Shown in pieces: positions 48,328 through 63,946 of a DNA stretch of 64,000 bases (the stretch's first letter is position 1; each line of letters starts with the position of its first letter). The notes under the pieces are model-generated. The model saw only the letters and a program-made list of their open reading frames with translations. It had not been told where the DNA came from and did no database searches. The translations under genes and the position numbers were made by a program. Source of the stretch: Xaviernesmea rhizosphaerae (GTDB lineage Bacteria > Pseudomonadota > Alphaproteobacteria > Rhizobiales > Rhizobiaceae); the NCBI RefSeq assembly GCF_001938945.1, contig NZ_MKIO01000020.1, positions 62,001 through 126,000 on the forward strand, in the 5' to 3' direction.

Positions 48328-49680
<1,353 letters not shown>

Positions 49681-49718
49681 GGATCGAACTCCTGGAAGTG
49701 GCAGGCGGAAGGATGCGC

Positions 49719-51476
49719 TCAGTTGATGCGCATGCGCTTCTCGGCAAAAACGGTGAGAGGGCGCCAGAGCACGCGGTTGAACAGGGTGACGAACAGCGAC
49801 ATGACGGCGATGCCGAGGATGACGCGGGGGAAGTCTCCGGCCTCCGTGGCCTTGGCGATATAGGCGCCGAGGCCGAAGGCCTCGATCTTGGTGTTGCCCC
49901 AGCTCGCCACCTCGGCGACGATGCTGGCATTCCACGAGCCGCCCGACGCCGTCAGCGCGCCGGTGATGTAATAGGGGAAGATGCCGGGCAGGATCACCCG
50001 CCGCCACCAGGTCCAGGAGCGCAGGCGATAGACCGCCGCGGCCTCCCGCAGATCGGAGGGGAAGGCGCTGGCCCCAGCGATCACGTTGAAGAGAATGTAC
50101 CATTGCGTGCCCAGCACCATCAGCGGCGAGAGCCAGATGTTCGGGCTCGCCCCGGTGGAGACGATGGCCAGCACTGCCACGGGAAAGAGCACATTGGCCG
50201 GGAAGGCGGCGAGGAACTGCGCCACCGGCTGCACCTTCTGCGCAACGTGCGGCCGAAGCCCGATCCACACGCCGAGTGGCACCCAGATCACGCTGGCCAG
50301 CGCGATCAGCACGATGACGCGCACGAGCGTGGCGAGACCGCCGGCAAAGGCCTGGCCCAGATCGGCCCAGCCGAGGCTGGCGCTGACATAGGTCACCAGG
50401 CTCCACACGCCCCAGATGCCGAGCGCGCCGACCGCGCCGAACCAGAGGATGTCGAACAGCCGGCTCAGGTCGCGGCCCTTCTGCCTGACGGAGGCGGGCA
50501 GCGCCGGCACCGGCAGGCGCAGCATCATCAGCCCATCCCACAGCCCGGCGAGCGGCGCGGTGAGGATGCGCAGGAAGCGGGTGCGGCGGATCAGGTCGTA
50601 GACCCAGGAGCCGGGGCGCTGACCGCTGGCCGTCTGCTCGAAGCGGAACTTGTCGGCCCAGGCGACGATCGGGCGGAAGATCAGCTGGTCATAAAGCAGG
50701 ATGACGACGCCCATGGCCAGGACCGCCCAGGCGACCGCCTTGAAATCCTGCCGGTCGATGGCCACCGCCAGCCAGGAGCCGAGCCCCGGAAGCTGCACCG
50801 TGGTGTTGCCCACGGTGATCGCCTCGGACGCGACGACGAAGAACCAGCCGCCGGACATGGACATCATCGTGTTCCAGACGAGACCCGGCGCGGCGAAAGG
50901 CGCTTCCAGCCGCCAGAAGCGCTGCCAGGCCGAGAGCCGGAAGCCCCGGCAGACCTCGTCCAGATCGCGCGGCGCGGTGCGCAGCGACTGGTAGAAGGAG
51001 AAGGTCATGTTCCAGGCCTGGCTGGTGAACAGCGCGAAGATCGAGGCGCATTCCGCCCCCATCTGGCTGCCGGGAAACAGGCCGATGAAGAAGGTGACCG
51101 TGAAGGTGAGGAAGCCGAGAACGGGCACGGACTGGAGAATGTCGAGCGCGGGCACGATCAGCATTTCCGCCCGGCGGCTCTTGGCGGCCATGGTGGCGAC
51201 GATGAAGGTGAAGAGCAGCGAGGCGACGATGGCCGCCAGCATGCGCAGCGTGGTGCGAAGCGCATATTCGGGCAGGCGTGCGGGATCGAGCGAGATCGGA
51301 TCGCCGGCCAGCACGTTCATCGGTGCGCGCATTTCCGCTACGCCATGCGCAGCGAGCGCGCCGAGCGCGATGACGAAGGCGATGGCGATCAGGTCATAGA
51401 GATTGGGCAGGAGCCGGCTGCGCGACAGCGCGGCCATATCGCTCTGCGCCGGGCGGTCGAGGGAGTGGAACACCAT
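49719..51476 (-). CDS. NitT/TauT-type ABC transporter with two fused permease domains
   Basis: Permease of 585 residues with two BPD_transp_1 units, about twelve helices. The first unit is near residues 70-270 (RTTLRMLAAIVASLLFTFIVATMAAK, then the EAA region of GFRLSAWQRFWRLEAPFAAPGLV); the second is at 385-560 (TLVRVIVLIALASVIWVPLGVWIGLRPHV and AAAVYRLRSWTWWRRVILPGIFPYYITG). The fusion replaces the usual pair of separate permeases. The ATG at 51476 has GAGGTG near. It precedes the ATPase gene by 38 bases on the same strand. No binding protein is associated. Confidence 0.9.
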   Translation of the reverse strand: MVFHSLDRPAQSDMAALSRSRLLPNLYDLIAIAFVIALGALAAHGVAEMRAPMNVLAGDPISLDPARLPEYALRTTLRMLAAIVASLLFTFIVATMAAKSRRAEMLIVPALDILQSVPVLGFLTFTVTFFIGLFPGSQMGAECASIFALFTSQAWNMTFSFYQSLRTAPRDLDEVCRGFRLSAWQRFWRLEAPFAAPGLVWNTMMSMSGGWFFVVASEAITVGNTTVQLPGLGSWLAVAIDRQDFKAVAWAVLAMGVVILLYDQLIFRPIVAWADKFRFEQTASGQRPGSWVYDLIRRTRFLRILTAPLAGLWDGLMMLRLPVPALPASVRQKGRDLSRLFDILWFGAVGALGIWGVWSLVTYVSASLGWADLGQAFAGGLATLVRVIVLIALASVIWVPLGVWIGLRPHVAQKVQPVAQFLAAFPANVLFPVAVLAIVSTGASPNIWLSPLMVLGTQWYILFNVIAGASAFPSDLREAAAVYRLRSWTWWRRVILPGIFPYYITGALTASGGSWNASIVAEVASWGNTKIEAFGLGAYIAKATEAGDFPRVILGIAVMSLFVTLFNRVLWRPLTVFAEKRMRIN

Positions 51477-51742
51477 GGGAGGCACCTCGTGAAGACGGGG
51501 CGGGGGAAACGCCGCCGGCGCCGGGGGAGGACCGGCAGGCGGCGGGGACGGACGCGGTGCCGCAGAGAGGTTTGAGGTCTCCTGCGGCGGCCGGGAGGAA
51601 AGCGGACGCGCACGGCGGATGCCTTCGGGAGGTATGCGCCGGGGCCGGGGATGGGTCGCCGGCCGCTTCTGTGCGACCGGAGGGACGGTGAAGCAGGGCC
51701 TTCGGATCGCGTCGCGAGGCGGCAATCGGCAGGGTCCGCGCG

Positions 51743-51764
51743 GCAGGCAGGCAATCCTGCCTGC
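51743..51764. other. Hairpin in the leader of the ABC permease gene
   Basis: GCAGGCAGG (51743-51751) and CCTGCCTGC (51756-51764) are perfectly complementary around CAAT. It lies about 270 bases upstream of the permease start, in the leader transcribed leftward. No U-run follows. Confidence 0.6.
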
Positions 51765-51792
51765 TGCCCTCATGGGCGGTGCGGGACGCGAG

Positions 51793-51842
51793 GCCGTTGC
51801 TGACCGGCGCCGGGATCATCCCCGGCGGCGGTCGGCAACGGC
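51793..51842. other. Long imperfect hairpin after the small ORF
   Basis: Arms of about 22 bases pair with three mismatches, starting GCCGTTGC and closing GGCAACGGC, around ATCATC. It starts a few bases beyond the stop of the small protein at 51847 on its coding strand, where it could end transcription or protect the message. Confidence 0.55.
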
Positions 51843-51846
51843 CCGA

Positions 51847-52077
51847 TCAGGCCGCCTGCGGCAGACGCGCAAGCGGTTCCTCGGCCTCGTTGTCGTTCTG
51901 GCCGCCGGTTTCGCGGCTCCAGCGGCAGACGAGCCGGCCGGTGGCGGCATCCCGGTGCCAGGTGGCGCGCAGGACGGGGCGTTCGCGAGCGGGAGCAGCG
52001 CCGACGGGCAGGCCGAAGCCGGGCAGGGCGCGGGCGAAGAGGGCGCGGGGACCGCGCAGGAAGAGGGTTACGTTCAT
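51847..52077 (-). CDS. Small hypothetical protein, 76 residues
   Basis: The ATG at 52077 has GAGGTGA six bases in front. The protein begins MNVTLFLRGPRALFARALPGFG, then PVLRATWHRDAATGRLVCRWS, and ends with an acidic EAEEPLARLPQAA. The WHRDAATGRLVCRW segment resembles a pattern I have met in small rhizobial proteins, but I cannot name a family. It sits on the same strand, about 370 bases before the ABC permease gene, with hairpins on both sides, so it may be the first gene of that unit. Confidence 0.65.
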   Translation of the reverse strand: MNVTLFLRGPRALFARALPGFGLPVGAAPARERPVLRATWHRDAATGRLVCRWSRETGGQNDNEAEEPLARLPQAA

Positions 52078-52341
52078 GGCTCACCTCATGGGGGACCGCT
52101 CTGGCGATCCCCTGGCGCCTGAGGCGAGCCGAAGCGGCTCAGGCGGCGCGGGAAGGGCCGGAGACGGACCAGTCACTGGGCATTGTGTGAACCGTCCGGC
52201 AGCCTTGCGAAAAGGCCGGGGCCGGACGGCGGCGACTATCGCTGTCCATCGGAGTGCTTTGTCAGGTTGATCGGAGATCGACGGGCAAAGGCCGCGTCGA
52301 CAGAAGCCTCATCTCACAGGGGGCGCCGCGGATCAATCGCG
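52078..52341 (-). other. Structured leader before the small protein
   Basis: Between the palindrome at 52342 and the ATG at 52077 are three hairpins: 52091-52112 (GGGGACCGC with GCGATCCCC), 52118-52143 (CCTGAG with CTCAGG) and 52192-52229 (CCGTCCGGC with GCCGGACGG). The first one ends about 13 bases before the start codon. The leader may be an attenuator or riboswitch-like element, but it fits no consensus I know. Confidence 0.4.
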
Positions 52342-52368
52342 CCTTGGTACAGGGCGATTATACCAAGG
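52342..52368. promoter_or_regulatory. Palindrome overlapping a TATAAT -10 box
   Basis: CCTTGGTA (52342-52349) and TACCAAGG (52361-52368) are a perfect inverted repeat with an 11-base centre. On the minus strand TATAAT (52357-52362) lies inside it. This resembles a repressor operator covering a promoter for leftward transcription toward the small protein and ABC transporter. A conventional -35 is not seen. Confidence 0.55.
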
Positions 52369-52704
52369 TATCGGTTGGAAATTCGGGGAGGCACGGGTGC
52401 GTTGGCGCGGCGCGCCGGTACGGTCCGTCCGAAGGCCGGACATCCTCCGGCCGGTAGGCGGCCGCGTGCTCAAGCCTGCCCGGGTTCATCTCCGACTTTT
52501 GCCTAAGATTTTTATTTTCAAGGGGTTATCGCTGAGGCGTCCGGCTTGTCGAGGTCAGGCAGGGCCGCCACGTCCGAGAAGACGGTGTCCTCCCTGTGCC
52601 AGCTGGTCGCAGCAAGCTTTCGGAAACCATAGGCGCGCGCAAGCCGCTCATCGGCGTGCGCCAACATCGCGGTAAGAGGCCGAACCAGCTTTTGGTCCGG
52701 CTCT
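52369..52704. other. Region between the operator palindrome and the amidase gene
   Basis: No clear gene. A minus-strand frame from 52667 to 52518 would encode 49 residues starting MLAHADERLARAYGF; it lacks a Shine-Dalgarno and is not recognised, so I do not call it. The AT-rich stretch at 52505-52525 (TTTTTATTTTCAAGGGG) may be part of the terminator region for the amidase operon. Confidence 0.45.
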
Positions 52705-54099
52705 CTATGCCGATGCCAGGAGCGGAGCCTCCAAAGCCCAGCCGGTGGCGCCCAGTGGCTCACCGGCATCGGCTTGCAGAAGGGAGGCGAGGGCGGCGAT
52801 GCGGCCGTCATTCCCGGCGGGGGCCAGCAGCGTCACATTGCCAGGCCTGCCGTCCGCGCGCGCGGCGACGGGAACGGCGATGCCGCAGAGATCGATGAGG
52901 TTGACGAAATTGGTGTAGGTGCCGAGCTGGGAATTCGGGCCGATCGGATCGGCCTCGATCTCGGCGGTGGTGACGAAGCGCGGGATGGTCGGCACGCAGA
53001 GAAGATCGACTGCGCTCAGCAGCGGGGCCGCCGCGCGCTTGAGATCGGCAAGCCTGTAGATGTCGCGGAAGACATCGACCGCCCGCAGGCTTTCGGCGCG
53101 GCCGATGATGGCGCGCGTCACCGGATGCAGCGCCTCCGGCCGGTCGCGCATCAGATCCTCGATACCGGCATAGCGTTCCGCCACCCAGGCGCCATCATAG
53201 AGCAGGCTGGCGATGCGGTAGAAGGGCGCAAAATCGAGCGGCAGGATGCGGTGTCCCAGCCTTTCGAGCACGGCCAGCGTCGCCTCGAAGGAGGCTTCTT
53301 GGGTGTCGTCGCCGAAGAAGCGGCGCGAGGCGGCATCCGGCACGCCGATGGCATATCCTGCCGCAGGGGCCTCCATCACAGGCGGCGGAAAGGCGCGGGA
53401 ATAGCCGTCGGCTTCGTCATAGCCGGCGGCGGCGGAAAAGGCGGCGAAGGCGTCCTCCACCGTCAGCGCGAAGATCGAGATCGTGTCCAGCGTGCGGCAG
53501 GCGGGCACCATGCCGCTGGCCGAGAGGCTGCCGAGCGAGGGCTTGAGCCCGACGATGTTGTTGAGCGCTGCCGGCACGCGGCCCGAGCCGGCCGTATCCG
53601 TGCCCAGCGCGAATGGCACGAGCCCGCGCGCCACCGCCACGGCCGAGCCGCTGCTGGACCCGCCCGGGACAATGGCCGGATCGAGCGCGTTTTTCGGAAT
53701 CGGATAGGGCGAGCGCAGGCCGACGAGGCCGGTGGCGAACTGGTCGAGATTGGTCTTGCCGATCGGCAGGGCGCCGGCCTCCCGCAATCTCGCGACGACG
53801 AAGGCGTCCTTGGCGGCCTGATATTCGAAGGCCGGGCAGGCGCAGGTGGTGGGCATGCCCGCAACGTCGATATTGTCCTTCACCGCGAAGGGAATGCCGT
53901 AGAGCGGCTTGGCCGGATCGTAAGCGCCGAGCGCGTCTGCGGCAGCGGCCACGCTCTCCTCCTCGGCCAGATGCAGGAAGATGCCGGGATCGGCGGCCTC
54001 GGCAATGCGGCGATAGGTTTCGGCCACCACCGCTTTCGGGCTCAGGCCGCTGGCATAGGCGGCGCTGAGGCGCGCCAGGGTGAAGGGCAGCGTATGCAT
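52705..54099 (-). CDS. Allophanate hydrolase-like amidase, lacking the C-terminal domain
   Basis: Amidase-signature enzyme of 464 residues. The Ser-cisSer-Lys triad is Lys74 in GIPFAVKDNIDVAG, cis-Ser148 in PGGSSSGSAVAV and Ser172 in GTDTAGSGRVPAA; the spacings 74 and 24 are those I recall for AtzF (Lys91, Ser165, Ser189). NNIVGLKPSLG and SISIFA-type features fit allophanate hydrolase AtzF/DUR1,2. AtzF-type proteins run to about 600 residues with a C-terminal domain of 130; here the protein stops after the amidase domain. It is the last gene of the biuret-type operon, where hydrolysis of allophanate to ammonia and CO2 (or the first half of it) is the expected step. Confidence 0.82.
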   Translation of the reverse strand: MHTLPFTLARLSAAYASGLSPKAVVAETYRRIAEAADPGIFLHLAEEESVAAAADALGAYDPAKPLYGIPFAVKDNIDVAGMPTTCACPAFEYQAAKDAFVVARLREAGALPIGKTNLDQFATGLVGLRSPYPIPKNALDPAIVPGGSSSGSAVAVARGLVPFALGTDTAGSGRVPAALNNIVGLKPSLGSLSASGMVPACRTLDTISIFALTVEDAFAAFSAAAGYDEADGYSRAFPPPVMEAPAAGYAIGVPDAASRRFFGDDTQEASFEATLAVLERLGHRILPLDFAPFYRIASLLYDGAWVAERYAGIEDLMRDRPEALHPVTRAIIGRAESLRAVDVFRDIYRLADLKRAAAPLLSAVDLLCVPTIPRFVTTAEIEADPIGPNSQLGTYTNFVNLIDLCGIAVPVAARADGRPGNVTLLAPAGNDGRIAALASLLQADAGEPLGATGWALEAPLLASA

Positions 54100-54117
54100 G
54101 GGAAGCTTCCGAAATGT

Positions 54118-54465
54118 TCAGAGGATCTGGACGGGGCTCGTCCACTGGATGAGCACGACACAGCCTTCCTGCGACGAGACGGAGTGCACGCTGCCCTCCG
54201 GATTGACCACCAGGGAGCCTGGGCCGTAATGCCCATATTCGTCGCTTTGCGAGCCTTCGAGCACCAGGATGGTCTCCACGCCGGTGTGCAGGTGGCGCGG
54301 CACGCTGGCGCCGGGCGCATAGCGCAGCAGCGCCAGCTCCGGCGCGCCGCTGAAGATGCGGTAGATCTCGACCCCCTCGCGGAAATATTCGAACTGGCAC
54401 TGATGCCAGGCATCCGCAAGAAACAGGGGCATGTGCACGATGGCGGTGGGTTGTGCCTCAGTCAT
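54118..54465 (-). CDS. Small cupin protein
   Basis: Single-domain cupin of 115 residues. The motif [44 protein letters not shown] carries the cupin 1 histidines (HLH), Glu in VETILVLEG and His in SVHSVSS, so a metal may be bound. It resembles ChrR-type cupins. The ATG at 54465 overlaps the end of the hydrolase gene by eight bases; the amidase gene starts 18 bases downstream. It may be a metal-binding accessory or an enzyme acting on an intermediate. No characterised function. Confidence 0.78.
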
Positions 54466-55123
54466 CAATCGCCTCCACGATCTGATCGACGGTGGCCGCC
54501 CAGCCGACGATCGCGCCCTGCGCGGTCATCATGTCGATGGCGGCCTTCTTGAATTCGGGAAAATAGCTTTCGGTGGCGTCGGTCGCGAGCAGGCATTCAT
54601 AGCCGCGGTCGTTCGCCTCGCGCATGGTGGTCTGCACGCAGACCTCGGTGGTGACGCCGGCAAAGACGAGCTGGCGCACGCCCTTCTCTTTCAGCATCTC
54701 GCCGAGCGGGGTGGCATAGAAGGCGCCCTTGCCCGGCTTGTCGATCACGGTCTCCCCGGGGATGGGATAGAGCGCCTGGATGATGTCGGCGCCTGCTTCG
54801 CCGGCAATGAGGATGCGGCCCATGGTGCCGGGATCGCCGATTCTGAGCGAAGGGTTACCGCGCGTGCGCTTGGCGGGCGGGCAATCGGACAGGTCGGGCG
54901 CGTGGCATTCCCGCGTGTGGATCACGGGAAGGCCGGCCTTGCGGAAGCCGGCGATCAGCCGGGCGGTGGCGGGAACGATCGCCTGCAGCCGCGTCACGTC
55001 ATTGCCGAGCGTGGCGCCGAAGCCGCCGGGTTCGATGAAATCGCGCTGCATGTCGATGACGATCAACGCGGCGTTTTCGGGCGCCAGCGTGAAGTCGAAG
55101 GGGCGGGCCTTGATCGTCGCCAT
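54458..55123 (-). CDS. Second cysteine hydrolase of the isochorismatase superfamily (BiuH/TrtA-like)
   Basis: Hydrolase of 221 residues. The triad is Asp24 ([10 protein letters not shown]), Lys129 ([14 protein letters not shown]) and Cys162 ([19 protein letters not shown]). It shares with the biuret-hydrolase-like neighbour the [12 protein letters not shown] and IDKPGKG-FYAT elements, so they are paralogues with different specificity. It overlaps the ATPase stop by one base. Candidates are a triuret hydrolase (TrtA-like), ureidoacrylate-type or carbamoyl compound hydrolase; the sequence alone does not decide. Confidence 0.85.
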
Positions 55124-56661
55124 CAGTGATGTCCTGCCATGTGCTTGCCGATCTCGCCGATATCGGCGCCGGCGGCCGGTGTCTCGAACACGATCCTGCC
55201 TTCCGACATCACCAAGATGCGGTCGGAGAGTTCGAGGATTTCGTCGAGGTCCTCGCTGATCAGCAGCACGGCGGCGCCGGCATTGCGCGCGGCCATGATG
55301 CGGGTGCGGATTTCCGCCACGGCGGAAAAATCCAGGCCGAAGCAGGGATTGGCGATCAGCAGCAGATCGACCGCGCCGTTCAGCTCGCGCGAGAGCACCG
55401 CGCGCTGGACATTGCCGCCGGAAAGGGCGGCAATCGGCGTGGCGAGCGAGGCGGTCTTCACCTTGTATTCGCCGACCAGCCGGGCCGCAAGCTCGGCCAT
55501 GCGGCGCCCGTTCAGCCAGAATTTCGGCTTGCCGCCGGCAAAGTCGAAGTCGCGGAAGAAGATGTTCTCGGCCACGCTCATCTTCGGCGCGCAGGCATTG
55601 CGCAAGGGCTCTTCCGGTAGATAGCGCACATTGAATTGGCGCGCCTCGCTCCGTGTGGCGTGAAAGGGCAGGCCGCAGACCTTGATGGCGCCCTCCATCA
55701 GCGGACGCTGGCCGGAAAGGATCTCCATCAGCTCCATCTGCCCGTTGCCGGAAATGCCGGCCAGGCCGACGATCTCGCCGGACTTCACCTTGAGATCGCC
55801 GATCTCGATGGTCTTCAGGCCCGAGCGGTCGGCCGCCTTGGCGCCGGAGACCGTCATCACCGGCTTGCCGTTGACCGCCAGACGGGCGGCGGGGCGCACC
55901 AGTTCCTTCTCGCCGATCATCATTGCCGCCATCTCCGCGGTGGAGAGATCGGCGACCTTGCCGCCGCCGACATGCTCGCCCCGGCGCAAGACCGAGACCT
56001 CATCGGCAAAGGCGGTGACCTCGCGGAACTTGTGCGAGATCATCAGGCAGGTCAGCGTGCCATCCGTGGTCAGGCCGCGCACCATGCCCAAGAGTTCGTC
56101 GGCCTCCGCTGGGGTCAGCACCGAGGTCGGCTCGTCCAGAATGAGGAAGCGGCGGCCGAGATAGAGCTGTTTCAAAAGTTCCAGTTTCTGCTTCTCGCCT
56201 GCCGCCAGCCGGCCCACCGGCACGTCGAGCGGCACGGAAAAAGGCATGCGTGTCATGAAGGCGGCAAGGTCGGCGCGCTCCTTCTCCCAGTCGATGCGGG
56301 CGGGCACGTCCTTGCGGCTGATCACGAGATTTTCGGCGGCGGTGAGCGAGGGCACCAGCGTGAAGTGCTGATAGACCATGCCGAGACCGAGATCATGGGC
56401 GGCGCGCGGGTCGGGCACCGCCACCTCGCGCCCGTCCACCGTCATCTGCCCCGAGGTCGGCTTGTAAAAGCCCATCATGCATTTGACGAGCGTCGATTTT
56501 CCCGCGCCGTTTTCGCCCAGCAGCACATGGAAGGAGCCGGCGGGAATGCGGATCGATACGTCCTTGAGCGCGGTAAAACTGCCGAAGCGCATGGTCATGC
56601 CGAGCGTTTCCACGGCGATGGCGTGCTGCGGCGGGGAGGGGTCGAGCGCGGGAACCCTCAT
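55123..56661 (-). CDS. ABC transporter ATPase with two nucleotide-binding domains (BMP/nucleoside type)
   Basis: ATPase of 512 residues with two ABC domains in tandem like RbsA and YufO. The first has Walker [10 protein letters not shown], the signature [15 protein letters not shown] variant and Walker [12 protein letters not shown]; the second has a degenerate Walker [10 protein letters not shown], signature [15 protein letters not shown] and Walker [13 protein letters not shown]. The ATG at 56661 overlaps the stop of the biuret-hydrolase-like gene (ATGA). It drives the two permeases for a small-molecule substrate; context suggests a urea derivative rather than a nucleoside. Confidence 0.9.
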
Positions 56662-57335
56662 GGCAGGGCCTCGACGAAGGCGGCGCTGTTGCTGACCGCG
56701 CCGAACACGCCGCCCTGCATCTTCACCATCTTGATCGCTGCGGCATGGTTGCCGGGGTCGGTGGCGGCGCAGCAATCCTCCAGGAGCAGGCATTCGAAGC
56801 CGCGATCATTGGCCTCGCGCATGGTGGTATGCACGCAGACATCGGTGGTGATGCCGGAGAGAACGATGTTCTCGATGCCGCGCGTGCGCAGGAGCAGTTC
56901 GAGATCGGTTGCGCAGAAGGAGCCCTTGCCCGGCTTGTCGATGATCGGCTCGCCTGCCAGCGGCTTCAGTTCGTCGATGATCTCCCAGCCCGGCTCGCCG
57001 CGCACCAGGATGCGCCCGCAAGGGCCGGCATCGCCGATGCCCGCGCCGATCTGCTGCGAGCGCCAGCGCTTGTTGGGCGGCAGGTCGGAGAGATCGGGCC
57101 GGTGACCCTCGCGGGTGTGGATGACGTGATAGCCCTTCTCGCGCATGGCGGCGAGCACGGTCTTGATCGGCTCGATCGGCGCGCGGGTCAGCGCGATGTC
57201 ATAGCCCATGGTATCGACATAGCCGCCCGGCCCGCAGAAATCCGTCTGCATGTCGATGATGATGAAGGCGGTGTTCTCCGGGCGCAGGTCGCCATTATAG
57301 GGCCATAGATAGGGATCGGCATGAATCGTGGTCAT
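56658..57335 (-). CDS. biuH: Biuret hydrolase-like cysteine hydrolase
   Basis: Hydrolase of 225 residues. The triad is Asp28 ([10 protein letters not shown]), Lys134 ([15 protein letters not shown]) and Cys167 ([17 protein letters not shown]). The spacings of 106 and 139 equal those I recall for BiuH of Rhizobium leguminosarum 3841 (Asp36, Lys142, Cys175), and the N-terminal [17 protein letters not shown] and C-terminal [17 protein letters not shown] stretches also look the same. BiuH cleaves biuret to allophanate and ammonia. The ATG at 57335 has GGAGC. It lies between the permeases and the ATPase of a BMP-type transporter. Confidence 0.86.
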
Positions 57336-57376
57336 CGCAAAGCTCCAGTCGCGTGGCCGCCGCGGGCGGCGCCATT

Positions 57377-58300
57377 TTACTTGATGATGCTGAGTTCGCC
57401 GGGGGCGGAGGGCAGGGCGCGGGTGCGCGAACTGGTCGCCACCAGGAAGCCGAGGGTGAGCACGTAAGGCGCGGCATAGAAGAGGTAGTAGCCGCTGGTG
57501 ATGCCGACCGATTGCAGCGCCGGGCCGAGCGCGCCGGCCCCGCCGAAGAGCAGGGAGGCATAGAGGCAATTCACCGGATTCCAGCGCGCGAAGATGACGA
57601 GCGCCACGGCCATCAACCCCTGGCCGGAGGAAATGCCCTCGTTCCAGCTGCCGGGATAATAGAGCGAGAGATAGGCCCCGCCGATGCCGGCCAGGGCGCC
57701 GCCCGCCGCCGTCGACCAGAGACGCACGCGGTTGACGTCGATGCCGAGCGCGCGGGCCGCATCCGCGCTGTCGCCGGCGACCCGGATCGTCAGGCCGATC
57801 CGGGTGTTCTTCAGCATCCAGGCCGTGGCGAAGGCCAGAGCGATGCCGGCGAGGAACAGCACATTGACGTTCAGCGCCGCCTGCACCTGCGGCAAAGGTG
57901 ACCAGAAGCCGAGCGGGATGGCCGGCAGGTGCGGCGCGACCGGCTGGACGTAGGGCTTGCCGAAGAAGAAGGCGAGCCCCGTGCCGAAGATCATCAGCGC
58001 GATGCCGATGGCGATGTCGTTGACGCGCGGCAGGCTGCAGAGCACACCGTGCAACAGGCCGAAGAGCAGGCCGGCAAAGGCGGCGGCCAGCGTGCCGAGC
58101 CAGGGCGAGCCGGTGTGATAGGCCACGGCATAGCCGCTCATGGCGCCGAAGACCAGCGTGCCCTCGAGCCCGAGATTGATGCGCCCCGACCGCTCCGTCA
58201 GGCATTCGCCCGTCGAGACGAAGATGAAGGGCGTGGAGACGCGGATGGCGCCGCCGAGAATGGCAAGGGGCACGCCCCAGAGACCGATATCCTCGCTCAT
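57377..58300 (-). CDS. BMP-type ABC transporter permease 2
   Basis: Permease of 307 residues with about eight helices, of the YufQ/nucleoside-permease (branched-chain-like) class. It has the motif [28 protein letters not shown] and the conserved [32 protein letters not shown] block. Its start overlaps the end of the first permease gene by four bases. It belongs to the same uptake system as the double ATPase. Confidence 0.9.
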
Positions 58301-59409
58301 TTCTGCCTCCGTTCAAGGAAACTCAGGAATTTCAGCCGGTCCTGGAAGGTGTCGGAGAGGAGGATGGCGATGAACACCATGCCCTCCAACACCAGAACCG
58401 TCGCGTCCGGCAGGGCCATCCGCCGCTGGATCAGCCCGCTCGACGCCTCCAGCCCGGCCAGCAGGATGGCGGCGGGCACGATGGCCAGCCCGTTGTGGCG
58501 GGCGAGGAAGGCGATGAGGATGCCGGTGTAGCCATAGCCGGCGGCGAGCGAGGCATTGGCCGATCCATGCACCGCCGCCACCTCGAACATGCCGGCGAGA
58601 CCGGCAAAAGCGCCGCCGAGCGCGGTGAAACCGATGACCAGGCGGCCGGCAGGCAGGCCCTGGATGCGGGCGGCGCGCAGGTTCCCGCCGACGATGCGGG
58701 CGGCAAAGCCCCATGTCGTGCGCTCGATCAGCACCCAGCTGAGGATGCAGCCGAGAATGCCAACGGCAAGGCCCCAGTGCACGCCGAGCCCGGGGATCTC
58801 GCCGATCCGCCAGGCGGCGGGCAGCGGCGCGGTGGAAGGCTTGTTGAGGCTGGCGGGATCGCGCAGCAGCCCCTCGACCAGATGGTTCATGAGCGCGATG
58901 GCGACATAGGCCATCAGCAGGCTGGCAATGGTCTCGTTGACGCCGCGCAGGTGCCTGAGCGCCCCGACGCCGCCGATCCAGAGCCCGCCGACGAGCGCGC
59001 CGGCAAGGGCCATCAGCAGGATGCCGGCCGGGCCGGGCAGGCCGGGCATCAGCGTGGCCACCGCGCCGGCGGCCACGCCGCCGAGCACGATCGCCCCCTC
59101 GCCGCCGATGATGACGAGGCCGAGCCGCGCCGGCAGGGCCACGCAGAGCGCCGCCAGAAGCAGGGGCGCGGCGCGGGCCAGCGTGTTCGTCCAGGAAAAG
59201 GCCGTGCCGAAGCCGGCCTTGTAGACGAGGAGGTAGAAATCGAGCGGCGGCTTGCCGAGGAAGGCCAGGAAGATCGAAAAGGCGATCATCCCCGCCAACA
59301 GCGCCGCCAGCGGCAGGATCGCCGTCTCGATGCGGCGGGCCGTGGCTTCGCTGAGGAAGCCGGCCCGCACGGCGGCCGATGCCGTCCGTTCAGCATGCTG
59401 CATGCTCAT
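58297..59409 (-). CDS. BMP-type ABC transporter permease 1
   Basis: Permease of 370 residues with about eight or nine helices, of the YufP class. Conserved parts are [62 protein letters not shown] and [23 protein letters not shown]. An alternative start is the ATG at 59403. A repeat-rich gap of 466 bases separates it from the binding protein gene upstream. Confidence 0.9.
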
Positions 59410-59440
59410 GGCCTGTCTCCGGGCAAGGGGCGGTTTTGGT

Positions 59441-59492
59441 GTGTCGGATCGAAAAGCAGAGGACGGATTTTCGGGGAAATCCGATGAAAAAA
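59441..59492 (-). repeat. Intergenic palindrome family, copy I (decayed)
   Basis: GTCGGATCGAAAAGCAGAGG, then ACGGATTTTCGGGGAAATCC and GATG; part of the inverted form of the family. Confidence 0.6.
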
Positions 59493-59628
59493 CAGCATTT
59501 TAGAACTTTAGACGGCTTGTCAGCCACAGTACACGACGCAAACGGTTGATCGGCTAGGCAGGTCGTCCCACGAGGTTAGGAGGATTGCTTCCGCATGACA
59601 TCACATTGAGGCGGAGCCTCTTCCTCTT

Positions 59629-59714
59629 CGTCATCCTCGGGCTTGTCCCGAGGATCTGCTGACGTCCATAGAATCAAACGTTGTAGATGCTCGGGACAAG
59701 CCCGAGCATGACGA
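59629..59714. repeat. REP-like pair of palindromes
   Basis: TCATCCTCGGGCTTGTCCCG and AGGATC at 59629-59660 and, inverted, GATGCTCGGGACAAGCCCG with AGCATGACG at 59686-59714. Each unit is itself palindromic around CGGGCTTGTCCCG, like REP or BIME elements of alphaproteobacteria. Confidence 0.65.
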
Positions 59715-59875
59715 CCGAGAGGCTTCGCCTTGGATCACAGCTTCCCCAAACCGCTGCTCCGAGAGGCTCGCAATGCATTCTTAAGTTCGCCAGTAAGATG
59801 CATTGTGTATTTGGGTAGTGATCGAAGTGCAGAACGCCACGGCAGAAGCTCTCCGTCGTCTCCCATGCCGACCCT

Positions 59876-61000
59876 TTACGAGGTCGAGCCGATCACGCCG
59901 TCCACGAGATAGCTCATGCTCTCCAGCGCCACGTCGGTCTCGACGAAGGCCTGGCCGGCCGTGGCCACGACATTGCCCTTGTTGTCCTTGAGCGGGCCCT
60001 TGATGGCGGCGAAGCCGCCCTTGAGGATCTCGGCCTTCGTCGCCTCGAACTGGGCGCGCGCCTTGTCGGAAACGGCGGGGCCGAGCGGGCTCATCTTGAT
60101 GAAGCCGTCGGCGAGGCCGCCGCGCACGAAATTGTCGATCTTGCCGCCGGCCATCGTGGTCTTGACCATGTCGCCATAGACCTTGGCCCAGTTCCACTCG
60201 GCGCCGGTCAGATATTTTTCCGGGGCGAGCGCGCTCTGGTTGGCGTGGTAGCCGCACAGGAACATGCCGCGCCCCGCGCCGGTTTCCATCACCACCTTGG
60301 GCCCGTCCACATGGCAGGTGACGACATCCACGCCCTGGTCGGCCAGCGCATTGGTGGCCTCGGCCTCCTTCACCGCCAGCGACCATTCGCCGGTGAAGAT
60401 CACCTGGCAGGTGATCGACGGATCGACGGCGCGCGCGCCCAGCAGGAAGGAATTGATGTTGAGCAGCACCTGGGGAATGGGCTTGGCGGCGACGAAGCCG
60501 ATCTTCTTCGACTTTGTGGCATGACCGGCGACGATGCCGTTCAGATATTGCCCCATGCCGATATAGCCGAAATAGGAGCCGACATTCTTCGGCTTGTCCG
60601 GCGTCCACAGGCCGCCGCAATGCTCGAAGCGGACCTCGGGATATTTCGGCGCGACGGCGAGGATATGCGGATCGAAATAGCCGAAGGAGGTCGGGAAGAC
60701 GAGCGTGGCGCCGTCGAAGCCGATCATGCTCTCCATGGTCTTCTGCACGTCCACCGTCTCGGGAACCTGCTCCTCCTCGACCACGGTCACGCCCTCCATC
60801 GCCTTGACGGCGGCGGCCCCTTCGGCATGCGACTGGTTGTAGCCGAAATCATCCTTCGGGCCGACATAGATGAAGCCGACGGTGAGACCCGCGGCGCGGG
60901 CCGTGCCCGCCGGCAGGAGGCCGGAAAGGGCGGCGGCGCCGGCAAGGCCGGCCGTGCTGCGCAGAAACTGGCGGCGATTGGGCATCAGGATCCTGGACAT
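59876..61000 (-). CDS. BMP family ABC transporter substrate-binding protein with Tat signal
   Basis: Periplasmic binding protein of 374 residues. A twin-arginine signal is present: MPNRRQFLRSTAGLAGAAAL and cleavage near GTARA. The mature protein has BMP features: GLTVGFIYVGPKDDFGYNQSHAEGA, GFDGATLVFPTSFGYFDPHILAVA, SYFGYIGMGQYLNGIVAG and GVDVVTCHVDGPKVVMETGAGRG. The ATG at 61000 (GGGGAA upstream) is chosen; ATG at 61015 is possible. It is first in the leftward operon and divergent from a LysR gene. Ligand likely a urea derivative by context. Confidence 0.9.
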   Translation of the reverse strand: MSRILMPNRRQFLRSTAGLAGAAALSGLLPAGTARAAGLTVGFIYVGPKDDFGYNQSHAEGAAAVKAMEGVTVVEEEQVPETVDVQKTMESMIGFDGATLVFPTSFGYFDPHILAVAPKYPEVRFEHCGGLWTPDKPKNVGSYFGYIGMGQYLNGIVAGHATKSKKIGFVAAKPIPQVLLNINSFLLGARAVDPSITCQVIFTGEWSLAVKEAEATNALADQGVDVVTCHVDGPKVVMETGAGRGMFLCGYHANQSALAPEKYLTGAEWNWAKVYGDMVKTTMAGGKIDNFVRGGLADGFIKMSPLGPAVSDKARAQFEATKAEILKGGFAAIKGPLKDNKGNVVATAGQAFVETDVALESMSYLVDGVIGSTS

Positions 61001-61126
61001 GACAAAGTTCCCCATTTGTCGTCAAACCGGCGGCGCTTTCGGCTCTTTGGGCCGGCTTATTTGCGTTCCGGCTTTAGTAATCCAGATGGACGCGCTTCTG
61101 TCTTGTGCTATGTTTTGGCCGGGGCG

Positions 61127-61160: not shown

Positions 61161-62069
61161 ATGCGCTATCTCTCCTCCATCCGCTATATCGACGCGGTGG
61201 TGAAGGCCGGCTCGATCCGGGCGGCGGCCGATACGCTGGCCATCACCTCCACGGCGCTCAACCGCCGCATCCTCGCCATGGAGGAGGAGCTGGGCGTGCC
61301 GATCTTCGAGCGGCTGCCGCATGGGGTGCGGCTGTCGGCGGCGGGCGAGATCTACATCCACCACATCCGCAACCAGCTTTCCGACATGGAGCGGGTGAAA
61401 TCGCAGATCGCCGATCTTTCCGGCGTGCGGCGCGGCCATGTGTCGATCGCCTGCAGCCAGGCGCTCTTGCCCTATTTCCTGCCCAGCCAGATCGCGCTCT
61501 ACCGCAAGGAGCACCCCAACGTGACCTTCGGCGTGCATCTGCGCGACCGCGAGGCGGCGGAGCAGGCGCTGGTCGATCACAGCGCCGATCTCGCCATCGT
61601 CTTCGAGCCGGTGCGGCTGGCCGATTTCATGACGCTGATCCGGGTGCGCCAGCCGGTGCATGTGGTGATGGCCGCGGGCCATCCGCTGGCGGCGAAAACG
61701 AGCGTGCGGCTGTTCGAATGCGCGAGCTATCCGGTCTCGCTGCCGACCGCGCCCTATGGCGTGCGCCATCTGCTCGACATCGCCATGCGGGTCGCCGGCA
61801 TCCGGCTCGATCCGGTGATCCAGTCCGACAGCTTCGAATTCCTGCGCAATCACGCGGTGGCGGAGGATATCCTCACCTTTCAGATCCCGATCGGCCTGGG
61901 CGACGAGACCTCGACCGGCCAGATGGTCTCGCGCCCGATCGACAGCCGCGATGTTCCTTCGGGCATTCTCTATCTCGGCCAGCTGAAGGGCCGCACCCTG
62001 CCGGTGGCCGCAGCTCGCTTCGCCGCGCAGCTGACCAGCACGCTGGCCAACCAGTTCGAGGTTTCGTAA
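61161..62069 (+). CDS. LysR family transcriptional regulator
   Basis: Regulator of 302 residues. The HTH is YIDAVVKAGSIRAAADTLAITSTALNRRILAMEEELGVPIFERLPHGVRLSAAGE; the effector domain follows. It is divergent from the BMP-transporter/hydrolase operon with a T-N11-A site between, so it probably regulates that operon. The ATG at 61161 is used. The inducer is unknown, possibly an operon substrate or nitrogen signal. Confidence 0.92.
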   Translation: MRYLSSIRYIDAVVKAGSIRAAADTLAITSTALNRRILAMEEELGVPIFERLPHGVRLSAAGEIYIHHIRNQLSDMERVKSQIADLSGVRRGHVSIACSQALLPYFLPSQIALYRKEHPNVTFGVHLRDREAAEQALVDHSADLAIVFEPVRLADFMTLIRVRQPVHVVMAAGHPLAAKTSVRLFECASYPVSLPTAPYGVRHLLDIAMRVAGIRLDPVIQSDSFEFLRNHAVAEDILTFQIPIGLGDETSTGQMVSRPIDSRDVPSGILYLGQLKGRTLPVAAARFAAQLTSTLANQFEVS

Positions 62070-62271: not shown

Positions 62272-62706
62272 ATGAAGCTCAAGACCGTTCTTTTTTCGCT
62301 AGCCCTTGCCGGGCTCGCCGCCGGCGCCGTCACGGCGGCCGAACCGCAGAAGGTCCGCGAAGGCATGATGAAGCAGATCGGCGGCTCCGTCGGCGCGCTG
62401 GGCGCCATCGCCAAGGGGCAGAAGCCTTATGATGCCGCCGTGGTGAAGACCTCGCTCGAGACGATCAGCAAGAACATCAAGGCTTTCCCGGATCAGTTCC
62501 CGGCCGGCTCGGACGCCAATTCCGAGGCGAGCCCGAAGATCTGGGCCAATATGGACGACTTCAAGGCCAAGGCTGACCACCTTGCCAAGGAAGCCGACAC
62601 GCTGCTGGCCCAGCTGCCGGCCGACCAGGCCGCCGTGGGCGCCGCCGTCGGCAAGCTCGGCCCGCTCTGTTCGGACTGTCACCAGACCTACCGTCTGAAG
62701 AAATAG
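62272..62706 (+). CDS. Cytochrome c' / c-556 type c cytochrome
   Basis: Periplasmic monohaem cytochrome of 144 residues. The Sec signal is in LFSLALAGLAAGAVTAA. The mature part is a four-helix bundle with the haem motif CSDCH near the C-terminus (SDCHQTYRLKK), the position characteristic of class II cytochromes c. AGGAGAGG lies before the ATG. It may carry electrons or bind NO; its partner may be the diheme cytochrome 320 bases on. Confidence 0.9.
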   Translation: MKLKTVLFSLALAGLAAGAVTAAEPQKVREGMMKQIGGSVGALGAIAKGQKPYDAAVVKTSLETISKNIKAFPDQFPAGSDANSEASPKIWANMDDFKAKADHLAKEADTLLAQLPADQAAVGAAVGKLGPLCSDCHQTYRLKK

Positions 62707-63028
62707 GGTCTGCCTGAAAACAGAGGGTGCCGATGGTGGCCTGGACGATTGCCGGGCCGCCGTCCCTCCCTGGCGGGCAAGCAAATGATAGAGGCCAGCA
62801 GGCGGGCAACGCCCGACACTGCGGGACGCTCTTTCCCATGGCGTCCGATGCACTGTTTTGTCTGCGCATCGGTTATTTCTGACAAGTTGAGCCGCTTTTC
62901 GGCCCGATTTCTGGTTGTCCGGTTGCCATTTTCCGCAACCGCGCCACGTCTCATGCACGATCAGAAAAACGGGATGGAGCGCCCGCATCCGCTCCGCGCC
63001 GAGCGGCGTGAGCTAGGGGAGAGAGAGC
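62707..63028. other. Intergenic region with palindrome copy J (62841-62910)
   Basis: The repeat copy (GCGTCCGATGC, TGTTTTGTCTGCGCATCGG, CGCTTTTCGGCCCG) is decayed. No gene is visible before the diheme cytochrome. Confidence 0.55.
62841..62910 (+). repeat. Intergenic palindrome family, copy J (decayed)
   Basis: CGTCCGATGCACTGTTTTG, TCTGCGCATCGGTTATTTC, then GCCGCTTTTCGGCCCG. Second arm is largely lost. Confidence 0.55.
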
Positions 63029-63946
63029 ATGGGGCGCAGGCGCGGCGGGATCGGCATCTCCCTTCTTCTCATCGCCGGCTTTGCCGGCGCGCTGGGCTGG
63101 TTCCTGACCAAGCCGGAGCGCCAGCCGGCCGCGCATTGGCAAGGCCTGCCCGCGGCTGATGTCGCCAATGGCGAGCGCATCTTCTGGGCCGGCGGCTGTG
63201 TCAGCTGTCATGCGGCGCCGGGCGCGGAAGGGCAGGCGCGGCTGACGCTGTCAGGCGGTCTCGCGCTGAAGAGCCCCTTCGGCACCTTTCACGTGCCCAA
63301 CATTTCCCCCGACGAGAAGGCCGGCATCGGCGGCTGGACGCTGGCCGAATTCGGCGATGCGATGACGCGCGGGGTGGGCCGCAATGGCGAGCATCTCTAC
63401 CCGTCCTTCCCCTATGGGTCCTATAGCCGGCTGACGCCCAAGGATGTCTCCGACCTCTTCGCCTTCGTGAAGACCCTGCCGAAGAGCGAAACGGTGGCGC
63501 CGCCGCATGAGTTGCCTTTCCCTTACAATCAGCGCCTGCTGCTGGGCGGCTGGAAGCTTCTGTTCTTCAGCGATGCGCCGCGCGTGGCCCTGGCCAATGC
63601 CGATCCGGCGGTGCTGCGCGGGCAATATCTGGTGGAGGGCCCGGGTCATTGCGGCGAATGCCACACGCCGCGCAACGGGCTGGGCGGCTTCGTCAGCGGC
63701 CAGTGGCTGGCCGGCGCGCCCAATCCGGAAGGGGAGGGCCGCGTGCCCAACATCACGCCGGCCTCTGAAACGATCGGCAGCTGGAGCGCCGGCGATATCG
63801 CCAACTATCTGGAAACCGGCTTCACCCCCGACTTCGACAGCGCCGGCGGCAATATGGTCGAGGTGCAGCAGAACATCGCCCATCTGCCGGCCGAGGACCG
63901 CGCGGCCATCGCCGCCTATCTGAAGGCCGTTCCGCCCGTCAAATGA
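63029..63946 (+). CDS. Membrane-anchored diheme cytochrome c
   Basis: Protein of 305 residues with an uncleaved N-terminal anchor (GISLLLIAGFAGALGWFLT) and two haem-c domains. The first CxxCH is in GGCVSCHAAPGAEG and the second in GHCGECHTPRNGLGG. Distal Met ligands are not certain; NGEHLYPSFPYGSYSRL and FDSAGGNMVEVQQNIAHLP are like those of diheme electron-transfer subunits of dehydrogenases. The ATG at 63029 has GGGAGAGAG upstream. It may be the electron acceptor of a periplasmic dehydrogenase not in the window. Confidence 0.9.
   Translation: MGRRRGGIGISLLLIAGFAGALGWFLTKPERQPAAHWQGLPAADVANGERIFWAGGCVSCHAAPGAEGQARLTLSGGLALKSPFGTFHVPNISPDEKAGIGGWTLAEFGDAMTRGVGRNGEHLYPSFPYGSYSRLTPKDVSDLFAFVKTLPKSETVAPPHELPFPYNQRLLLGGWKLLFFSDAPRVALANADPAVLRGQYLVEGPGHCGECHTPRNGLGGFVSGQWLAGAPNPEGEGRVPNITPASETIGSWSAGDIANYLETGFTPDFDSAGGNMVEVQQNIAHLPAEDRAAIAAYLKAVPPVK

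Follow-up and report, generated by a model that had tools for sequence, protein, structure and literature searches.

A 64,000-nucleotide stretch of the Xaviernesmea rhizosphaerae genome (contig NZ_MKIO01000020.1, positions 62,001 to 126,000; hereafter the window, with coordinates counted from its first letter) carries an eight-gene leftward operon that, judging from its gene content, probably serves nitrogen scavenging from urea condensates by means of a BMP-type ATP-binding cassette (ABC) importer and a TrtA/BiuH/AtzF cascade to ammonia. In the proposed scheme, the importer (binding protein, two permeases and double ATPase) would take up biuret and/or triuret, TrtA would convert triuret to carboxybiuret with release of one ammonia, and carboxybiuret would give biuret and CO2, either spontaneously or, as we propose, sped by a small cupin. 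BiuH would then hydrolyze biuret to allophanate and ammonia, and a short AtzF would release the last two ammonias from allophanate. The substrates named here are those of orthologs characterised elsewhere and are assigned to the window's enzymes by analogy. The pathway and operons of this kind are already known, and the locus, though well formed, is an ordinary example of the published triuret/biuret operons. Two of its functions stand unassigned, and for these we tentatively advance a joint proposal that is possible but, with its two parts taken together, rather doubtful: that the importer is dedicated to biuret/triuret and has a rebuilt purine pocket (Glu165 to Gln, plus Gln139 and Asn169), and that the cupin is a metal-dependent carboxybiuret decarboxylase, a second and non-homologous one that replaces the AtzH-like protein of other clusters. 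The operon genes and the adjoining regulator, with products as predicted, are the following.

52705..54099, minus strand: AtzF-type allophanate hydrolase, 464 amino acids, lacking the C-terminal domain (TIGR02713, NF006043, 4cp8)
54118..54468, minus strand: small single-domain cupin, 116 amino acids, ChrR-like fold, putative metal site (PF12973)
54458..55123, minus strand: TrtA, triuret hydrolase, 221 amino acids (6xix, E 3e-84; residue set)
55123..56661, minus strand: double ATPase of the BMP-type ABC importer, 512 amino acids (PF00005, two stretches)
56658..57335, minus strand: BiuH, biuret hydrolase, 225 amino acids from the MTTIHADP start (NF050097; 6azo)
57377..58300, minus strand: ABC permease 1, 307 amino acids (PF02653, 122 bits)
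58297..59409, minus strand: ABC permease 2, 370 amino acids (PF02653, 81 bits)
59876..61015, minus strand: BMP-type solute-binding protein, 379 amino acids, Tat-type signal (PF02608, 121.8 bits; PF10518)
61161..62069, plus strand: divergent LysR-type regulator, presumed regulator of the operon (PF00126 and PF03466)

The hydrolytic enzymes

The original prediction, made from the letters of the window, had pointed to catalytic triads in two cysteine hydrolases and to a cascade from triuret through biuret and allophanate to ammonia, and both claims held up. Each hydrolase is isochorismatase-like with a D-K-C triad, and the identity of BiuH is supported by a curated model: it scores 422.7 bits against the NF050097 equivalog (cut-off 370; scored on a frame from 57356, where an earlier start is possible), whereas the TrtA gene reaches 248.3 bits with the same model. 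The closest solved chain to BiuH is the Rhizobium BiuH 6azo (E 1.4e-127, 82% identity) and that to TrtA is the Herbaspirillum TrtA 6xix (61% identity), the window TrtA being 49% identical to BiuH. We compared both at 12 residues that are catalytic, substrate-binding or discriminating between triuret and biuret according to PMC7948467, taken from an alignment. All 12 positions of the window TrtA agree with TrtA, including the triad D24-K129-C162 and the discrimination residues F35, N41, E160, Q202 and I205, and all 12 of the window BiuH agree with BiuH, with Tyr at TrtA positions 35 and 41, Asp160 and Val205. In the related loci described below, the TrtA residue set is complete in 80 of 80 proteins and the BiuH set in 76 of 77, the 77th being gapped at one position. 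By ortholog function and by these residues, the TrtA gene is thus predicted to encode a triuret hydrolase and the BiuH gene a biuret hydrolase. Elsewhere, BiuH-like proteins at four loci (L140, L141, L145 and L146) depart from the discrimination set (Ile replacing Val at 205; Gln replacing Glu at 72 together with Glu replacing Gln at 202) and possibly act on other substrates; those of L145 and L146 adjoin another BMP-type system.

The amidase passes both the TIGR02713 equivalog (583.7 bits, cut-off 511.05) and NF006043 (626 bits, cut-off 487), its best solved relative is 4cp8 (E 1.3e-126), and alignment with 4cp8 places the amidase-signature Lys and two Ser, whose roles in AtzF we take as given. 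At 464 amino acids it is short compared with the at least 599 found in 50 of 54 AtzF frames of related loci (lengths from the first start codon). We considered whether it might be a frameshifted long gene and ruled this out, as no remnant of the C-terminal domain lies in 51500-52705. The shortness is no obstacle to the cascade because a truncated enzyme, AtzF467, was as active as the full-length protein (PMC3944691). The window amidase is, by sequence, an allophanate hydrolase that lacks the C-terminal domain. Each enzyme gene of the cascade thus passes a family or residue test, and orthologs are published for these steps.

A second ureide-type operon was seen in the same 5.53 Mb genome (locus L134, contig C31, at about 38-44 kb). 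It encodes two isochorismatase-like hydrolases (52 and 31% identical to BiuH), neither with a TrtA or BiuH residue set, as well as an allophanate hydrolase of full length and ABC genes of the carbohydrate type.

Conservation of the operon and linkage of the importer to BiuH

All eight leftward genes first described (BMP, two permeases, double ATPase, two hydrolases, cupin and amidase) are present, and they extend to 61015, the start of the BMP gene, instead of the 61000 given originally. The description of the genes as overlapping was right for four junctions (TrtA/cupin, 11 nucleotides; ATPase/TrtA, 1; BiuH/ATPase, 4; permease 2/permease 1, 4), whereas three are gaps: 18 nucleotides between cupin and AtzF, 38-41 between permease 1 and BiuH (20 with the earlier BiuH start) and 466 bp between BMP and permease 2, the sole break in otherwise tight packing.

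To follow these genes across genomes we drew on three collections. The nearest loci are the best 80 of 562 TrtA relatives, in which TrtA is present by construction; by TrtA the closest are those of Rhizobium sp. G21 (90%) and FKL33 (89%). A class sample of 289 genomes and a phylum sample of 398 genomes are wider, and together they share two genomes with the 80 nearest loci. Joined counts are deduplicated, the window's own genome, which sits in both wider samples, being counted once. BiuH orthologs were called at identities of at least 74% (class) or at least 69% (phylum), and BMP partners, no more than 6 kb away on the contig, at identities of at least 54% (class) or at least 49% (phylum).

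A search for the same gene order in other genomes, which had been suggested as a check, found the order BMP-permease 2-permease 1-BiuH-ATPase-TrtA in 68 of 68 related loci of at least 19 kb. The BMP gene is present in 75 of the 80 nearest loci. In the class sample, BiuH orthologs occur in 24 of 289 genomes and a BMP gene lies within 6 kb in 21 of these 24; in one exception (G288) both genes sit on contigs that end there, and the other two (G057 and G246) have none. The phylum sample gave 26 of 398 genomes with BiuH and a BMP partner in 24 of the 26 (exceptions G634 and G447). With both samples joined, 44 of the 49 genomes that have BiuH also have BMP within that distance of it. There are furthermore 12 clusters composed of BMP, BiuH and the ATPase to which TrtA is not adjacent (L098, L099, L110, L136, L137, L138, L157, L158, L165, L167, L168 and L169). 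BiuH is thus the constant physical partner of the binding protein, which favours biuret as its ligand, and we think biuret a likelier main ligand than triuret.

Some of the 80 nearest loci hold inserted or neighbouring genes, namely a formamidase in 36 and AtzD in 20 (for example L046, 5665-6681 and 7259-8449). A search for cyanuric acid hydrolase gave no match in the window's own genome, and since control genomes gave none either this does not establish absence. Close BMP homologues were also seen in 155 plasmid records, among them 118 from Rhizobium, 9 from Klebsiella, 7 from Enterobacter and 3 from Citrobacter.

The ligand pocket of the binding protein

The binding protein matches PF02608 well above its cut-off of 24.1 bits, its AlphaFold model adopts the BMP fold with moderate confidence (pLDDT 78), and its closest solved relative, AtzT (6pi5, E 2e-60), is also the top fold match. 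The best named model for the double ATPase, NF047930, gave 394.6 bits, under its cut-off of 670. AtzT holds guanine through Ser97, the Phe98 backbone, Glu165, Asn218 and Asn220, while Tyr45 and Trp194 sandwich the ring (PMC6834077). Read at AtzT positions 45, 97, 98, 139, 165, 169, 194, 218 and 220, the window pocket consists of Y59, S110, F111, Q156, Q182, N186, W211, H235 and D237, that is YSFQQNWHD, against YSFTENWNN in AtzT and WSFREGWHD in a Brucella protein modelled with adenine. The purine-type Glu165 of AtzT is Gln182 here, and the AtzT-like set of purine ligands is incomplete.

This string is widely kept. The nearest loci show it in 72 of their 75 BMPs (the remaining three being incompletely covered), the class sample in 18 of 22 (in the remaining four, His139 is combined with Thr or Ser at 165) and the phylum sample in 22 of 25 (in the remaining three, His139 with Thr, Ile or Leu). 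In the deduplicated clade, 110 of 120 distinct BMPs carry it, three are incompletely covered and seven differ. Among 18 BMPs from outside the clade, taken as the 18 best-scoring weaker matches, Glu165 is found in 16 and the exact Brucella set in 15, and two have Gln165 with other changes. Four of the six BMP paralogues in the window's own genome could be aligned, and one of them (L088) has the exact Brucella residue set. By sequence, then, the clade BMPs keep the aromatic sandwich while part of the purine-reading polar side is replaced, and linkage and pocket together make biuret or triuret a likelier ligand for them than a nucleoside.

The cupin and its possible part in the carboxybiuret step

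The cupin matches PF12973 (57 bits, cut-off 27), and no second domain was found in its 116 amino acids. Each of 74 sequences, without exception, has its H59, H61, E65 and H95, which we take to be the canonical three-His, one-Glu cupin site. The predicted structure is confident (pLDDT 91). The protein scores 44.8 bits against the ChrR model TIGR02451, whose cut-off is 124.5, and searches with the predicted structure returned many generic cupins with ChrR topmost and oxalate decarboxylase chains at ranks 35 and 50, not singled out. In 73 of the 80 nearest loci the gene follows TrtA immediately. Some other triuret clusters have, in place of the cupin, an AtzH-like protein (PF11533; curated name HpxZ), and AtzH, of that family, is decarboxylating (PMC6219798). 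The window cupin matches cupin families and not PF11533; a search for PF11533 found no match in the window's genome, and one of 14 control genomes (Caulobacter) matched.

The two proteins exclude one another in every set that we examined. Of 104 distinct BiuH loci of at least 9 kb (105 minus one duplicate), 90 have TrtA and 14 do not; the cupin was found in 77 and 0 of these, respectively, the AtzH-like protein in 7 and 1, and both together in none. Among 28 class-sample genomes with a TrtA signature, the cupin is adjacent in 10, an AtzH-like gene lies within 7 kb in 8, neither is found in 10 and both in none (Fisher p 0.025 for n=28 and 0.027 for n=29, uncorrected for kinship). The 29th genome by identity, G208, has neither protein and lacks the TrtA residue set; G124 was omitted, with neither in reach. 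All ten strong cupin matches in 31 searched genomes are beside TrtA, and in two genomes (G164 and G262) the AtzH-like gene occupies the cupin's place just after TrtA. For 132 distinct TrtA-signature proteins, with some loci covering no more than about 3 kb to either side, the counts are 88 with cupin, 17 with AtzH-like, 27 with neither and none with both; seven further ones have neither. On a TrtA tree the cupins fall in the operon-type clade, most of them within a single part, and some AtzH-like genes are interleaved. From linkage and exclusion, the cupin is a candidate carboxybiuret decarboxylase, at what we would put just under even odds.

Alternative explanations

Several of our observations weigh against these assignments, and they bear on what else the operon might do. 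The closest solved binding protein is one that binds purines: AtzT takes guanine at 110 nM, and the Brucella protein 3s99 was modelled with adenine (PMC6834077). The ammonia-oxidiser genes bmpA-nupABC are moreover called a nucleoside transporter (PMC12625717), as would suit an importer of purines or nucleosides with enzymes nearby that degrade purine breakdown products. Gln at position 165 is also seen in the two outside-clade BMPs mentioned above, and the BMPs of 49-56% identity that adjoin BiuH combine His139 with Thr or Ser at 165, so that no single residue code defines the pocket. Such a BMP gene is missing from within 6 kb of BiuH in 5 of 49 genomes (G057, G246, G634, G447 and G288). We nonetheless regard purine uptake as improbable, given that the clade BMPs are without the guanine-bonding Glu165 and in 110 of 120 cases combine Gln139, Gln165 and Asn169, that the genome has the separate Brucella-type paralogue L088, and that no purine enzymes were among the genes sought in related loci, where not every gene was identified. 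An importer primarily for triuret (or cyanuric acid), with biuret mostly made inside the cell, is a better contender, though still an unlikely one. A TrtA-signature gene lies elsewhere in all 12 genomes with TrtA-less clusters (L188, L197, L212, L213, L144 and L214-L220); such clusters therefore do not exclude triuret as ligand, which raises this alternative and slightly lowers our own reading. The cyanuric acid hydrolase in a quarter of the nearest loci points the same way. Against it stand the constancy of BiuH as partner, a pocket that is unchanged with or without TrtA or AtzD in the cluster, the weak binding of cyanuric acid by AtzT (340 uM; PMC6834077) and the fact that TrtA outside BiuH operons often adjoins another possible transporter of 530-540 amino acids (18 of 132 distinct loci, one of them near BiuH, and 4 of the 7 later ones). 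As for the hydrolases, the guanylurea hydrolases belong to the same family and are up to 65% identical to relatives (PMC9800807), the superfamily is a shared one, and the RutB model gives 108-120 bits with the window proteins. It is nevertheless very improbable that guanylurea, ureidoacrylate or another ureide is their substrate, as both fall short of the RutB cut-off of 378, both have complete residue sets and they are 82% (BiuH) and 61% (TrtA) identical to the characterised enzymes.

The cupin is where the balance is closest, and here we lean, by a narrow measure, towards a regulator, metal sensor or other accessory protein rather than a pathway enzyme. Its closest named family and fold is the ChrR anti-sigma cupin domain, carboxybiuret decarboxylates unaided with a half-life near 20 min (PMC7948467), and neither the cupin nor the AtzH-like protein is in reach at 34 of 139 distinct TrtA loci (27 of 132 and 7 of 7), implying that the decarboxylation step needs no gene in many genomes. 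The cupin also requires as few as 5 changes on the TrtA tree, and the AtzH-like protein 10, so that their mutual exclusion rests on few evolutionary events. An accessory role sits less easily with the absence of the cupin from BiuH clusters that lack TrtA and its frequency in those that have it, with its never being found together with an AtzH-like gene in the examined loci, and with its small, single-domain size.

The 530-540 amino acid protein that follows TrtA outside BiuH operons (L143, L148, L149, L172 and others) is probably a membrane permease and a candidate triuret permease. It gave no Pfam match in four proteins tested and no NCBIfam match in three.

Relation to known systems

TrtA, BiuH and AtzF encoded in one operon free all four triuret nitrogens in Herbaspirillum sp. 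BH-1 and Rhizobium leguminosarum 3841 (PMC7948467). Plasmid pRL10 of strain 3841 (R. leguminosarum, johnstonii) carries BMP, two permeases, BiuH, ATPase, TrtA and cupin in an order identical to that of the window, its BMP system and cupin being annotated only by family. It differs in having an inserted formamidase and AtzD and a GntR-type regulator, whereas the window has a LysR gene, neither insert and a short AtzF. No allophanate hydrolase is annotated in the 11.5 kb of this locus that was read, yet the available text of PMC7948467 gives the operon an AtzF. The operon of strain BH-1 has the same three enzymes as the window, with a TrtA 61% identical to ours, but also a trtB decarboxylase whose family is not stated in the accessible part of PMC7948467; its TrtA falls in a group of the tree that holds AtzH-like-bearing clusters and no cupin. 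From gene content and from a line naming atzH in the abstract of PMC12625717, we infer that TrtB is the AtzH-like protein.

The atzRSTUVW and atzDGEHF genes of Pseudomonas sp. ADP resemble the window in the BMP-type importer AtzT, the regulator AtzR and an allophanate hydrolase, but that strain uses AtzD, AtzEG and AtzH, cannot degrade biuret and has an AtzT that keeps Glu165 (PMC6834077, PMC6219798). Contigs of ammonia oxidisers printed in 2025 place bmpA-nupABC beside trtA, biuH and atzF (PMC12625717), a BMP-type ABC system with triuret enzymes as in the window. The original prediction regarded a biuret or triuret importer of this class as new; the co-location had thus already been published, while the importer itself is called a nucleoside transporter there. 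That source also names trtB for the ammonia-oxidising bacteria, and the word cupin is absent from its main text as available. Our literature search, mostly of titles and the beginnings of abstracts, found no assignment of the importer to biuret or triuret, no account of how these compounds get into cells and no role for the cupin. Where it has been noticed, the importer is probably misnamed a nucleoside transporter.

Regulation and neighbouring genes

The operon is presumed to be regulated by the divergent LysR gene; AtzR of Pseudomonas sp. ADP is, we assume, likewise of the LysR type. In the 80 nearest loci the regulator is GntR-type in 53 and a related LysR in 18. A strict search for a sigma-54 promoter found none in the BMP-LysR interval or the 466-bp gap, where there are loose GG-N10-GC matches only. 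The gap between BMP and permease 2 also holds, at 59628-59714, a 30-nucleotide inverted repeat (arms 93% complementary, 27 nucleotides between them) that resembles a dispersed palindromic element. By reading alone, the leftward frames at 48328-51773 look like the permease and ATPase of a nitrate/taurine-type ABC importer, and two rightward frames at 62272-63946 with C-x-x-C-H motifs are probably cytochromes c.

Implications

Gene content, family membership, residue signatures and linkage were observed directly at this locus and its relatives, and they bear on compounds of wider interest: biuret and triuret reach soils as impurities of urea fertiliser, the former being toxic to plants. If the importer is correctly assigned, the use of biuret and triuret would become readable from genomes, those of nitrifiers included. 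If the cupin is a decarboxylase, rhizobial clusters without an AtzH-like gene would gain an assigned enzyme for the carboxybiuret step.

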